Assembly: GCF_002970935.1 (NCBI RefSeq)
Contig: NZ_CP027194.1
Span: forward strand, 2,356,001 to 2,420,000
DNA length: 64,000 bases
DNA from: Lactobacillus sp. CBA3606
GTDB lineage: Bacteria; Bacillota; Bacilli; Lactobacillales; Lactobacillaceae
Direction of reading: 5' to 3'
Position numbers and translations under genes: made by a program. The notes under the pieces are model-generated. The model was not told the DNA's origin, ran no database searches, and saw only the letters and a list, made by a program, of their open reading frames with translations. This document shows, in pieces, positions 1,096 through 29,313 of the stretch; within the stretch, counting starts at the first letter, position 1, and each line of letters opens with the position of its first letter.

Positions 1096-3127
1096 GTTTT
1101 TGCCTTGGCTTGACCAGCAATTTACGGTGCATGGTTGTTTTATTGACAACGAGATTCAGTGGCTTGTCAGTTGTCGGTTTGAATTGCCGTTTCTCACCAG
1201 TTTTGGGTGCAGTCGTGAATGATTGTTTGGGCCGTGATGTTGGCTTTTCTATTGGTGTTTTAGTATGTGGTAGTTTAGTGGTACTGGGATCGCGTGGCTT
1301 TGGTTGCGTGACTGGAGAAACTGCCGACTTTTTCTTGATCGGATCAGAATTAGACGGTTGCCGTGGATTCTTTGGCGGATCAACCACTAATTTACGCCGT
1401 TGCATTTCTTCCCGACGTTTTTTAGCGGCCAGTTCGCGTTCTGATTGATTGTCTTGACGCTGATTTTTCAACCCATTTTTGAAATCACCAATACCTTTTT
1501 TAGCCGTTTCTTTACCTTGATGTAACCCATATTTTGTATTGGTTGGCAGATCCTTTAACTGTTCTTTGGTGTGTTTCGCAGTTGCGGCCATTTTCTTTTT
1601 GGTATCTAATGCAGCACCCACTTTTTTACCAGCACGGGTCATCTTGCTAGTGGTGGCATCGCGTTTATTGGGCTGTGGTCGTTTTGAATTACCTTTACCG
1701 GTTGCATCAGTACCAGTTTCAGTCTGCGGCTGTGGACGTGGTTTTAAACCGCGTGCGAGCATACCACCCATTGCGGCGTTGCCCATGACCTGCCGGATCA
1801 AACGGCTACTACTGCGGCGCAAGCGACTAGCACCAGCTTGGGAGTCAGAACTTTTAAGCTGCATCATGCCCATTAAATCGCCGAGCTTCATCCAGATGCC
1901 GGCAAAGATGACGATTTGGAGAAAGGCGACCAGAAAGAATGGGGTGGTGGTCGATAGCCCATAGATCATGGTGGAAAGGCAGAACGTCAATGTTAGGACA
2001 ATAGTGACGCCAGCACGCATCATGATCGTATTGAATAGCCGCAAAACAGCCGTTTTCATTAAGCCGTTAAATCCTGGGATCATGGCTAAGAGACAACTGA
2101 TCGGTAAGAAAATGGCGTAAATAATAAAGAGGATTTGACTAAATAACATCATCGCTGTGAGAAAGAAGACAAAAATGGTGATTGCGATATCGAAGATACA
2201 CACAAAGGTGGTCACACCTAAACGTTGAATCGTTTTGACCGCTGATAGATTGTCGTTTTCTTTATCTTCAATTTCAGCCTTGACGATCTCTGTTCGATCT
2301 TTACCTTTGTTCTTGAACGGATCAGTTTTGACCAGTTTGTTGACGCGATCCTCGCCAACCTCCTTGAGATTAGAATCGCCAAACTGTAATAACGTCCACG
2401 GCTGTTTGACTTGAATGTTGAATAACGTTTCACGAATCGCATCAACCCCGTTTTTTGAGGTGGACTGTTTATTTTGCATGATCATTTTAGAACCAGTGTT
2501 TAAAGCTGAGGTACTCATATCGGCGGAAAATTGGTTGATCTTGCCAATATAGTCGGGTGAGTAGGCAATGAAGCTTGCCGACAGAATAAAAATCACGATA
2601 AAATTGGCTACCGCTGAGATGGCTTTGGAGGATTCACGTTTGATCAGGCCAGTATAGGCGACATACACGCCAAGCACTAATATCAGCAACAAAAGCATAC
2701 CGGGATAAAAGCCGTCAGCGCTAAAGCCGTTTTTAGAAACCCCGGCGAGTAGTTGCATGTTTTTACCAATGGCATCGGTGGTATCTTTGATGAAATCTAG
2801 TGAGTAAGCTTGTTGAATCAGGTAACCCGTGGCGTAGGAGAGGTAGACGGAGATCAGCCACAGAAAATTGGTGATAGCATAAATAGCGTACATGACCGAC
2901 TTGCCAATGCCGTCACCCCAGTTCCATGGCAACCAATCCCATGATGAATCGACGAAATAATCTAGTTGATAGTTATTGACTGGATATTTGGAAAATTCGT
3001 GTTTATTATTGACGGTTTCATCGACTAGGCCTGCTGCGTGGACACTTTGGAGAGAAGTAGCACTCACTAGCACCACGACTAGCACAAAGCCGATCAGTAA
3101 TAAAAGTCGTTTTTTACGTACCGACAT
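1085..3127 (-). CDS. conjugation channel membrane protein, Orf15/VirB6-like (CD3337/EF1877 family)
   Basis: A 680-residue protein with a signal-like N-terminus, several hydrophobic segments in two groups (about residues 85 to 200 and 305 to 410) and a long hydrophilic, basic, Pro/Thr/Lys-rich C-terminal tail (about 440 to 680). This plan matches Orf15 of Tn916 and its relatives, thought to form the membrane channel like VirB6 of type IV secretion systems. Its ATG follows directly on the stop codon of the VirB4-like gene, with its ribosome binding site GGAGGTGAG inside the end of that gene. The tail is low in complexity and probably disordered, which is usual for the family. Confidence 0.85.
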   Translation of the reverse strand: MSVRKKRLLLLIGFVLVVVLVSATSLQSVHAAGLVDETVNNKHEFSKYPVNNYQLDYFVDSSWDWLPWNWGDGIGKSVMYAIYAITNFLWLISVYLSYATGYLIQQAYSLDFIKDTTDAIGKNMQLLAGVSKNGFSADGFYPGMLLLLILVLGVYVAYTGLIKRESSKAISAVANFIVIFILSASFIAYSPDYIGKINQFSADMSTSALNTGSKMIMQNKQSTSKNGVDAIRETLFNIQVKQPWTLLQFGDSNLKEVGEDRVNKLVKTDPFKNKGKDRTEIVKAEIEDKENDNLSAVKTIQRLGVTTFVCIFDIAITIFVFFLTAMMLFSQILFIIYAIFLPISCLLAMIPGFNGLMKTAVLRLFNTIMMRAGVTIVLTLTFCLSTMIYGLSTTTPFFLVAFLQIVIFAGIWMKLGDLMGMMQLKSSDSQAGASRLRRSSSRLIRQVMGNAAMGGMLARGLKPRPQPQTETGTDATGKGNSKRPQPNKRDATTSKMTRAGKKVGAALDTKKKMAATAKHTKEQLKDLPTNTKYGLHQGKETAKKGIGDFKNGLKNQRQDNQSERELAAKKRREEMQRRKLVVDPPKNPRQPSNSDPIKKKSAVSPVTQPKPRDPSTTKLPHTKTPIEKPTSRPKQSFTTAPKTGEKRQFKPTTDKPLNLVVNKTTMHRKLLVKPRQKHDE

Positions 3128-26435: not shown

Positions 26436-28109
26436 GTATTCCCCACGCATGTGGGGGTGATCCTGATCTATCCGCTTGGTCAATCAAAAAAATGCAGTAT
26501 TCCCCACGCATGTGGGGGTGATCCCAGCCGATTGGTCACCGCTAACTGTGTTTCCCGTATTCCCCACGCATGTGGGGGTGATCCTGCCGGTCAGACCACG
26601 GGTTAAACGTGATTACTGTATTCCCCACGCATGTGGGGGTGATCCTTGGAATGACGTATTTTTCAATCTCATCTAACAGTATTCCCCACGCATGTGGGGG
26701 TGATCCTGATAAATCAGGAAATACAGCAACTTCGTGGGAGTATTCCCCACGCATGTGGGGGTGATCCCAATGAGAACAGATTTAATCAAGGAGACGAAAT
26801 GTATTCCCCACGCATGTGGGGGTGATCCCGTTAACAGCGTCGTTATTACTATCACTAACGCGTATTCCCCACGCATGTGGGGGTGATCCCTGGTTAGCAT
26901 CGCTCACAGACGATTCTGTGGTGTATTCCCCACGCATGTGGGGGTGATCCCGTATAAAGGCGTCTGGTCGGATATTATGAAATGTATTCCCCACGCATGT
27001 GGGGGTGATCCTATCCGTCAGGATCAGATAACAACGCATAAATTGTATTCCCCACGCATGTGGGGGTGATCCTCCCCAGTAGGTATCCCCACGCTTTGTC
27101 CGTCTGTATTCCCCACGCATGTGGGGGTGATCCCTGCGATTTACAAAGCATTATCTGGTGGTAAGAGTATTCCCCACGCATGTGGGGGTGATCCTAATGG
27201 GTCGACTGTGGCTGGACAGACGGCGGAGTATTCCCCACGCATGTGGGGGTGATCCTTAAATTTAGGAGGTAAAGAACGGCATCAAAGCGTATTCCCCACG
27301 CATGTGGGGGTGATCCTCACAGTGACCGGTTCAATCCTAGTCGCGTCCCGTATTCCCCACGCATGTGGGGGTGATCCTTTCGTTCGAGCTAACGGCAGGC
27401 TCGTCTAAAAGTATTCCCCACGCATGTGGGGGTGATCCTCTTATTCAAAGTATTCTGTGATGATTAATTCAGTATTCCCCACGCATGTGGGGGTGATCCT
27501 TAGTGGTAGTAATGCGACAGCAATCCGGTCATGTATTCCCCACGCATGTGGGGGTGATCCTGTTAGCGTGATTAATAAGCGGTAATTCGCCACGTATTCC
27601 CCACGCATGTGGGGGTGATCCTCGGTTCCAGCCGGATTATTCGTTGCCCCGGCTGTATTCCCCACGCATGTGGGGGTGATCCCGCTATCGGCATTTGATT
27701 TAACAGCATTGAAATGTATTCCCCACGCATGTGGGGGTGATCCCGGGAACAGCAGTATCACTGGAAGAAACCGCAGGTATTCCCCACGCATGTGGGGGTG
27801 ATCCTTTCTGGTCGAACTTAGTAAAAATCGCCAAATAGTATTCCCCACGCATGTGGGGGTGATCCTGGCAAGTGGCTGGTATACCGATCAGTTTACCGGT
27901 GTTCCCCACGCATGTGGGGGTGATCCCACCCATAATTTTACCCGCTAGTCCAACTGTTCGTATTCCCCACGCATGTGGGGGTGATCCTATGACCGAATCG
28001 CAATTGCGCTAATTCCTGTAGTATTCCCCACGCATGTGGGGGTGATCCTTTGGATAGTTGGAAGCAACGCGGCGTTAAGCAGTATTCCCCACGCATGTGG
28101 GGGTGATTC
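26436..28109 (+). CRISPR. type I-E CRISPR array, 28 repeats and 27 spacers
   Basis: Repeats of 28 bases with the palindromic core CCCCACGCATGTGGGG begin at 26436 and recur every 61 bases; counting each start gives 28 copies ending with the one at 28082. Spacers are 33 bases, except spacer 2 (26525-26556), which is 32. Repeats 1 to 24, 26 and 27 look identical; repeat 25 (27899) has G for A at position 3, and repeat 28 ends GATTCC with an extra T. Every spacer starts with T or C, so the functional repeat is probably 29 bases with a variable last base. Repeat sequence and lengths fit type I-E. No cas gene is in the window. Confidence 0.98.
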
Positions 28110-28182
28110 CTGGTGAAGGAGTCGATGCTGGTTCAGCTACCGGTGTTGTCGCAAGTGTTGATTCTGAATTATCATCTGCCAT
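28110..28182 (-). pseudogene. truncated N-terminus of a phage scaffold-like protein
   Basis: An ATG at 28182 with GAAGGAAG upstream opens a frame starting MADDNSESTLATTPVAEP and going on STPSPG, an acidic and Pro/Thr/Ala-rich start typical of phage scaffolding proteins that follow minor capsid genes. After 24 codons the frame enters CRISPR repeat 28 and stops in the last spacer (stop at 28075-28077). The rest of the gene is absent. Confidence 0.5.
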
Positions 28183-28256
28183 TTTTTTGCTTCCTTCAAA
28201 ATTTAGGTATAAAAAATGAGCCTTTTAATGCCATGCTTAGGGCAATAAAAAACACG

Positions 28257-28460
28257 CTATCCAGCGTGCCACACAATTCGTTTAATTTGCGATGCTTTGA
28301 TGCTAATCGTATCCCAATCCTCTGGTCCGCTACCGATATCCGCTTCAAATCCAGTTGTTGGGTCTTTAGGAACAAACACAATGGTGGCTTCACGACCATC
28401 AGTTAGCTCTACTATGTCGAACTCACAAATATCCCGTGAATCAACGCTCGCTTTTTCCAT
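28257..28460 (-). CDS. small phage-type protein, intact
   Basis: A 67-residue acidic protein starting MEKASVDSRDICEFDIVEL, with a strand-rich centre (GREATIVFVPKDPTTGFEAD) and the ending IKRIVWHAG. The ribosome binding site AGGAGG nine bases upstream is perfect (a second ATG is directly before). I do not recognise the family. It lies between the broken minor capsid gene and the scaffold-like start in the same direction, where small phage proteins are usual. It is the only uninterrupted gene of the fragment. Confidence 0.55.
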   Translation of the reverse strand: MEKASVDSRDICEFDIVELTDGREATIVFVPKDPTTGFEADIGSGPEDWDTISIKASQIKRIVWHAG

Positions 28461-28497
28461 CATTGTGTTTATCCTCCTTTACATAAATTGAAGTTAA

Positions 28498-29285
28498 TTA
28501 CATTTCTTTAGAATCCTCGTCATCAATCCAGGCAGTTCGTATACGTTTAGTCTTACCATTGGGACTTTCAATCATGTATCCACTTGATAAAAGTCATGCC
28601 GTGGCCGTGATTACCCTTCTTAACTACTCGTGAATGTGGCAATACGCTTTGAACCTAATTTATTAAATCCTTATAGTTGTTTTGAGTATAACCCCAGGAT
28701 GAGTTAAAAACTATTGCTTTATTCTTTCCAACTGGATGTTCAGGATTTAATGCATAATCTCGTAACATAGGCACAGGGATGATCGCAGCTTGATAACGTG
28801 GCAATAGTTCCATATTGTTTTTGGCATGGCTGTATGGTAGCTTAATTTTTTCACGATTGTATTGTCGCATAAGTCCGTGGTGTTTAATAAAGTCGTTCAG
28901 TATTGACTGCCGTCTGCCAATCAATTGTTGAGCGTTAGTAACTTCGCTTTAATCACCTAATTCATTAGCAGCTACTAATTTTCTGCGTGCCCGGCGAACC
29001 TCACGTTCAGGCCGTCGTTGCGACTGTTCTAATTGACGCATTCTCCTCATCACTCTGTTGCGTCACAGGCATAGCCCCAATACCATCAACATAAGGTATT
29101 GTATAGTGACGGCAATTAATACCACCAACGCCGGTAATCGTACCGTATCCTGTTGTTGATTCGAAATCTGGATACTTGTCCGTATTACCGTCCAAGGAAT
29201 AGACCTGGTCTTGATACTGCAAGTGGCTTGGTCGACATCCAATGTGAGAACTAACCTTCACTAACGAGCGATACTGGCGATATCT
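28498..29285 (-). pseudogene. decayed phage minor capsid protein with DUF6883-like C-terminus
   Basis: From the right end: SLVKVSSHIGCRPSH, then QDQVYSLDGNTDKYPDF and TGYGTITGVGGINCRHY match the C-terminal part of phage minor capsid proteins (Phage_min_cap2). After a frameshift near 29040 the reading continues as QLEQSQRRPEREVRRARRKL, then a stop near 28950, then QLIGRRQSILNDFIKHHGL. A DUF6883-like domain follows: LLPRYQAAIIPVPMLRDYAL, KAIVFNSSWGYT, another break near 28655, and IESPNGKTKRIRTAWIDD before a stop at 28498. At least three disruptions make it non-functional. Confidence 0.7.
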
Positions 29286-29313
29286 ATATTCTCCATGCAT
29301 GTGAGGGTGATTT
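29286..29313 (+). repeat. relic CRISPR repeat
   Basis: These 28 bases match the array repeat at 22 of 28 positions, in the same orientation. All six differences are transitions (positions 1, 7, 11, 19, 27 and 28 of the repeat), as expected from old point decay. It lies 1,176 bases after the end of the last array repeat and directly borders the phage fragment. Confidence 0.8.

Follow-up and report, generated by a model that had tools for sequence, protein, structure and literature searches.

How did more than a kilobase of phage DNA come to lie flush between two CRISPR repeats, and can the borders tell by which process it was joined to them? The question is raised by the end of an array in the window, that is, the whole stretch of 64,000 nucleotides analysed here (C1:2356001-2420000 of a 2.56-Mb genome). 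The original prediction, that phage DNA is trapped there between two repeats of the same orientation, is borne out by a segment of 1,176 bp whose phage homology ends at the repeats.

The CRISPR array and its cas genes

26436-28109, plus strand: type I-E CRISPR array, 28 repeats of 28 nt (GTATTCCCCACGCATGTGGGGGTGATCC), with the leader on the left side
28082-28109, plus strand: repeat 28, the last near-consensus copy, one base off the consensus
28110-29285, plus strand: phage-derived insert as a whole, flush with the repeats at both ends
29286-29313, plus strand: degenerate terminal repeat in the orientation of the array, shared with the sister species (L063 10929-10956)

The array is of type I-E, with uniform repeats, unique spacers of nearly constant length (26 of 33 nt and one of 32 nt) and a type I-E cas operon in the genome. 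It is flanked on the left by an aminopeptidase N gene (best model TIGR02412, under the cut-off) and a small gene with no NCBIfam match, and on the right by asnA. No cas genes adjoin it; the operon lies elsewhere in the genome, beside a second array of 34 repeats, and comprises cse1, cse2, cas7, cas5, cas6e, cas1 and a cas2 fused to a DnaQ-type/DEDDh exonuclease, with a 936-aa open frame ahead of cse1 whose counterpart in genome G001 is Cas3. G001, referred to below as the sister species, is the closest of the 20 other genomes of the genus that were searched (asnA 95% identical) and has a type I-E operon of its own, in which cas1, the cas2-exonuclease and cas3 were tested by search and the remaining genes were read from the frames; the Cas2-DEDDh fusion is present in both genomes. 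In the second array, spacers 26 and 27 (L041 9516-9548 and 9577-9609) are identical, a spacer duplication. Spacer 25 of the same array (L041 9427-9487) and spacer 31 of the sister species (L063 10307-10367) correspond to overlapping stretches of one source, so that both species have probably encountered one element or two related ones.

The terminal repeat

The repeat that closes the insert on the right has six mismatches to the consensus and five to repeat 28; elsewhere in the window the consensus scan yields nothing below ten mismatches, and the best of 200 dinucleotide shuffles has nine. This repeat is not a chance match. The original prediction had named two circumstances that would tell against it, a match at 29286 due to chance and the occurrence of the segment as plain chromosome beside pepN/asnA in strains lacking the repeat, and neither is what was found. 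Eighteen stretches beside asnA, taken from as many further species of the genus (G007, whose contig starts there, was left out), contain no repeat and no match to the insert at E 1e-3, and 13 of them extend to the pepN match. The explanation in which the segment is ordinary chromosome next to asnA and the second repeat a coincidence is thus refuted by the shuffles, none of which matches the repeat, by these 18 relatives and by the phage homology, and its probability is negligible. A solitary repeat brought in by the phage, an idea found in an excerpt of PMC8616872, was likewise rejected as the source of the terminal repeat, because both the repeat and its flank (93.6% identical from 29314 onwards) are also present in the sister species. 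A pattern search of the genome contigs with the terminal repeat and its flank returned no match.

Phage content of the insert

28110-28182, minus strand: start of a scaffold-type phage gene, truncated by repeat 28 after 24 codons
28257-28463, minus strand: 68-aa phage protein, function not assigned (phrog_34731, 2.7e-7)
28501-28804, minus strand: DUF6883-like tail, broken (Pfam DUF6883, 2.1e-9)
28847-29285, minus strand: C-terminal part of a minor capsid protein gene, broken, truncated by the terminal repeat (Phage_min_cap2, 2.9e-17; phrog_581, 1.7e-16)

The family matches agree with the predicted composition, a minor capsid end with a DUF6883-like tail, a small protein and the start of a scaffold gene, all on the minus strand, and the scaffold-type gene is related to a head scaffolding protein gene in L021 (phrog_2303, 1.8e-21); the frames are not intact, the phage genes being decayed by stops and frameshifts. 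A minor-head gene with a DUF6883 tail is plausible, since in a Pfam scan DUF6883 ends Phage_Mu_F proteins in three of five bacterial-family loci, the other two having DUF6883 without Phage_Mu_F.

A search of viral contigs with the insert gave 37 stretches, 25 of which were confirmed as relatives. In blastn against these 25 phage contigs two homologous blocks appear, 28111-28247 and 28847-29286, the right one ending at the terminal repeat (29286) in all 25 and the left one starting at the edge of repeat 28 (28111) in 21 and at 28156 in four. The middle of about 600 bp (28248-28846) is absent from all 25, and no single phage carrying the entire insert was found among the contigs searched; colinearity with known phages is therefore established for the two ends only. 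No match was obtained by blastn of the insert against 50,697 phage records and 72,556 plasmid records. Among 395 genomes of the order, with few candidates scored in each, six match the insert, the own genome included, the other five over 32-49 bp; among 41 genomes (the own and 40 relatives) four do, again with the own genome counted.

The 68-aa gene has relatives with 77-79% DNA identity in two other genomes, G019 and G015. These relatives (L013 1575-1784 and L011 1515-1757) are neighbours of lepA, which was confirmed in one of the two genomes, and no phage genes were recognised by eye in the 3 kb examined. With the 68-aa protein, a search of IMG/VR gave no confirmed relative; the single IMG/VR match of the DUF6883 query (L094) covers only 21 residues in frames that read as unrelated, and was rejected as a chance match.

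The insert is a fossil, for which no present function is claimed. A guide could in principle still be made from repeat 28 and the 33 nt that follow it; normal guide processing looks unlikely, as no downstream repeat is nearby.

A second trapped fragment in the sister species

On either side of the array the sister species is 93% and 94% identical to the window, and its leader is 94% identical; its array, of 33 repeats, has no spacer 18-mer in common with that of the window. There too, the last, degenerate repeat is followed by foreign DNA, here of 472 bp, and then by the same terminal repeat. These 472 bp, read on the plus strand, align at 61-69% DNA identity with another phage minor-head gene, of which they retain the beginning and the end but not the middle; the full-length gene in L085 has 561 codons (phrog_115, 2.5e-105; Phage_Mu_F, 1.2e-16). 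The broken frames themselves give weak results in family searches (phrog_115 at 0.024, and nothing above the cut-off in Pfam), blastn of the segment against the 50,697 phage records found no match, and an IMG/VR search with its 67-aa frame gave no confirmed relative. Seven of 301 family genomes match the segment, among them G000, which does so by way of the terminal repeat only.

The presence of different fragments in the two species points to separate events, or to an ancestor that carried both inserts, one being lost in each lineage. Both trapped fragments derive from minor-head genes. None of the 110 spacers of the two genomes matches either fragment within 11 mismatches, so that no self-targeting is seen.

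Acquisition motif and the borders of the insert

28049-28081, plus strand: spacer 27, the last ordinary spacer, with one mismatch to a phrog_115 minor-head gene in L083, where AA precedes the protospacer
28110-28142, plus strand: position that an ordinary 33-nt spacer would occupy; at its start, 21 of the 25 phage contigs read CAA-T and the remaining four CAA-C

The spacers of five arrays of the own genome and the sister species, 110 in all, are without exception 32-34 nt long, with no intermediate lengths, and 108 of them start with T or C. In the array of the window the first base is T in 18 of the 27 spacers and C in nine, and the base after repeat 28 is C; the earlier statement that all real spacers, as well as the insert, begin with T has to be withdrawn. 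Protospacers were read at six loci examined among the 34 matches listed, and at L083: AA precedes the protospacer of each of the seven different spacers that match with at most three mismatches. Weaker matches break this rule, AG standing before those in L037 and L036 (five and seven mismatches) and AT before that in L120 (six mismatches), the last of which sits within the array of another genome. From the T or C starts and the AA before all seven close protospacers, the acquisition motif is taken, on the sequences compared, to be AA plus a pyrimidine, the pyrimidine becoming the first base of the spacer. The gene matched by spacer 27 (phrog_115) is of the phage type whose fragment sits trapped in the sister species.

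At the left border, this motif stands where an ordinary spacer would have been cut from its source: CAA-T in the 21 contigs read by alignment and CAA-C in the four placed by a shared anchor. The 25 contigs are mutually related and hence amount to one observation of the motif, for which the accident rate is 4.7%, the share of positions in the phage contigs that have AA followed by a pyrimidine. At the right border of the window, AA-pyrimidine is absent at 32, 33 and 34 nt before 29286, AA-C being present at 31 nt and at 35 nt. The last 70 nt or so before this border align gaplessly to the phages (about 40 nt in the sister species), so that the reading is not blurred by indels. In the sister species, homology to phages on the left stops a few bases short of the repeat, and the motif, judged by eye, fits some phage relatives only, and then on the assumption that one base of the repeat was lost; at its right border AA-pyrimidine is again absent at 32-34 nt. 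The insert, in sum, has the flush, same-orientation repeat junctions of a spacer and, in its source, the PAM of a spacer at the 5' end, together with a length of 1,176 bp in place of 32-34 nt.

Origin of the insert

The explanation that we tentatively prefer, although we would put it at somewhat less than an even chance, is that the insert is an over-long spacer, properly processed on the PAM side and left untrimmed on the other, which arose in one aberrant adaptation event. A large aberrant spacer had been mentioned earlier as a secondary possibility, and it fits the borders better than does recombination of two spacers, the length remaining outside the 32-34 nt range. In a related system described in PMC10284694, trimming of the prespacer is the work of the Cas2-fused exonuclease; Cas1 protects the PAM-side end, which is integrated after the other one. 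By analogy, the Cas1-Cas2/DEDDh complex would have captured a phage fragment of more than 1 kb, processed its PAM-side end correctly and joined it to the 3' edge of a repeat, while the non-PAM end would have escaped trimming to the 33-nt ruler and been attached, unchanged, to the 5' edge of a repeat; this untrimmed end would presumably have been joined first and the PAM side, as is normal, second. The usual repeat duplication would then have produced the order repeat, 1.2-kb 'spacer', repeat, and the insert would have persisted at the trailer end and decayed. In vitro, according to the same paper, the trimmer-integrase needs a duplex of 23 bp for functional processing and its trimming is set by a ruler, for which reason the two ends of 1.2 kb could hardly sit in a single complex; a looped substrate or a pair of complexes would be called for.

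As to persistence, trailer ends are rarely deleted and terminal repeats are often mutated or degenerate, according to an excerpt of PMC8047081, so that recombination there should be hindered. The terminal repeat of the window is degenerate and common to both species, and an insert adjacent to it could therefore persist; we propose that the insert survived because this neighbouring repeat is too degenerate for recombination to remove it. The observations behind the over-long spacer are the phage origin of the insert, its flush borders, the PAM on the left, the lack of an ordinary spacer on the right, the second fragment in the sister species and the Cas2-DEDDh fusion in both genomes; what we infer from them is that both joints are the work of the adaptation complex, and the reason for the persistence of the insert. 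Against it stand the ordinary spacers, every one of which keeps to the normal length, and the single, chance-prone nature of the left-border PAM. More doubtful is the wider reading that type I-E Cas1-Cas2/DEDDh complexes sometimes insert kilobase-long, PAM-anchored foreign DNA, that phage pieces the size of genes are thereby kept at trailer ends, where recombination does not remove them, and that this took place separately in the two sister species.

The model put forward originally, in which two adjacent spacers from one phage recombined with phage DNA, a double crossover or gap repair exchanging the repeat between them for 1.1 kb, appears less likely than an over-long spacer in the light of the right border. 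Recombination between spacer and phage has been reported (Varble et al. 2019, as cited in excerpts of PMC8616872 and PMC10434264), the orientation and the order are compatible with it, and the left border, with CAA and a pyrimidine in all 25 related contigs, is a perfect spacer start. This model calls for such a start at both borders, and at the right one the absence of the motif at 32-34 nt, in the window as in the sister species, leaves a second ordinary spacer unsupported, considering that 108 of 110 spacers start with T or C; the AA-C 31 nt before the right border would come to lie at 32 nt if base 29286, which equals the phage base, were counted as spacer. Two fitting spacers and two crossovers within about 33 bp would moreover be needed, and needed again in the sister species.

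An eroded prophage, that is, a phage that entered the array by a single crossover at the left spacer or in some other way and of which later deletions left 1.2 kb, is improbable. Prophage integration into CRISPR loci has reportedly been described for Streptococcus pyogenes, and the loss of the middle of the gene in the sister species would suit such erosion. A single crossover, however, duplicates the left spacer, so that a copy of it should stand next to the terminal repeat; the sequence there differs, by which this variant was rejected; the deletions would also have had to stop exactly at the repeat edge in two species. No integrase and no further phage genes surround the insert, and the flanks, 93-94% identical to those of the sister species as far as the array on one side and beginning with the terminal repeat on the other, leave no room for further remnants. 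Still less probable is illegitimate joining, the capture of a phage fragment in a break at the repeat edge by end joining or template switching with the adaptation complex uninvolved: broken ends in arrays are plausible and any fragment would fit, but neither the PAM at the left border nor flush joints at both repeats in two species would be predicted.

Comparison with known systems and implications

The insert resembles the products of type I-E acquisition by Cas1-Cas2/DEDDh (PMC10284694) in the Cas2-DEDDh fusion of the system, in the flush insertion and in a PAM end marked by AA, or TT if the other strand is read, and differs from them in having 1,176 bp instead of 32-34 nt and a non-PAM end that shows no length set by the ruler. 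With the recombination of spacer and phage (Varble et al. 2019, as cited) it shares phage DNA joined at the start of a spacer; the right joint here lacks a spacer, and the process described there is the transfer of CRISPR loci by phages in staphylococci. The MITE in a Haloquadratum spacer is, in an excerpt of PMC3119063, likewise a case of an array interrupted by foreign DNA, although that element lies within a spacer, whereas the phage DNA here fills the whole interval between repeats. The S. pyogenes prophage (Varble et al. 2021) is also phage DNA within a CRISPR locus, whereas in the window it is a head-gene fragment, and the interval between the repeats contains no integrase gene. No report of kilobase-long spacers or inserts was found in the open-licence literature, a scope that leaves most subscription journals aside; work on ectopic spacers (PMC5338259) has no bearing on spacer length.

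If the insert is indeed an over-long spacer, the length ruler of CRISPR adaptation is open to failure at one end of the prespacer, and adaptation becomes a route by which bacteria can acquire whole stretches of phage genes. The border test is general: a PAM-matched spacer start at one border, as against both, sorts an adaptation error from recombination.

Other long intervals between repeats in the genus

Repeats were mapped in 15 further stretches of the genus, chosen among the matches listed, and four long intervals were read (L115, 1.0 kb; L116, 0.55 kb; L117, 0.72 kb; L121, 1.5 kb); intervals longer than these are present in L118 and L123. In the frames of these four, read by eye, there are no head genes, and small regulators, a GrpB-like gene or nothing recognisable were seen instead. 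Trapped phage fragments were thus observed in two cases, in two sister species, from which no rate can be derived. The GrpB-like gene, identified by eye in L117 (G014, 1607-2509, minus strand), lies between a mini-array of three repeats and a repeat with a leader-like sequence of its own. A family of small HTH-like proteins is encoded between solitary or degenerate repeats in the own genome (L040 18014-18196), in L116 (1814-2026) and in L115 (2746-2907, minus strand); it is present in 7 of 21 genomes of the genus, and its tie to CRISPR repeats is only suggestive. Elsewhere in the own genome, a leader-like stretch with one degenerate repeat lies downstream of rlmH (L040 8935-8962); at the rlmH position the sister species has an array of 15 repeats (L121 2635-3516), and the remnant is probably a collapsed array.
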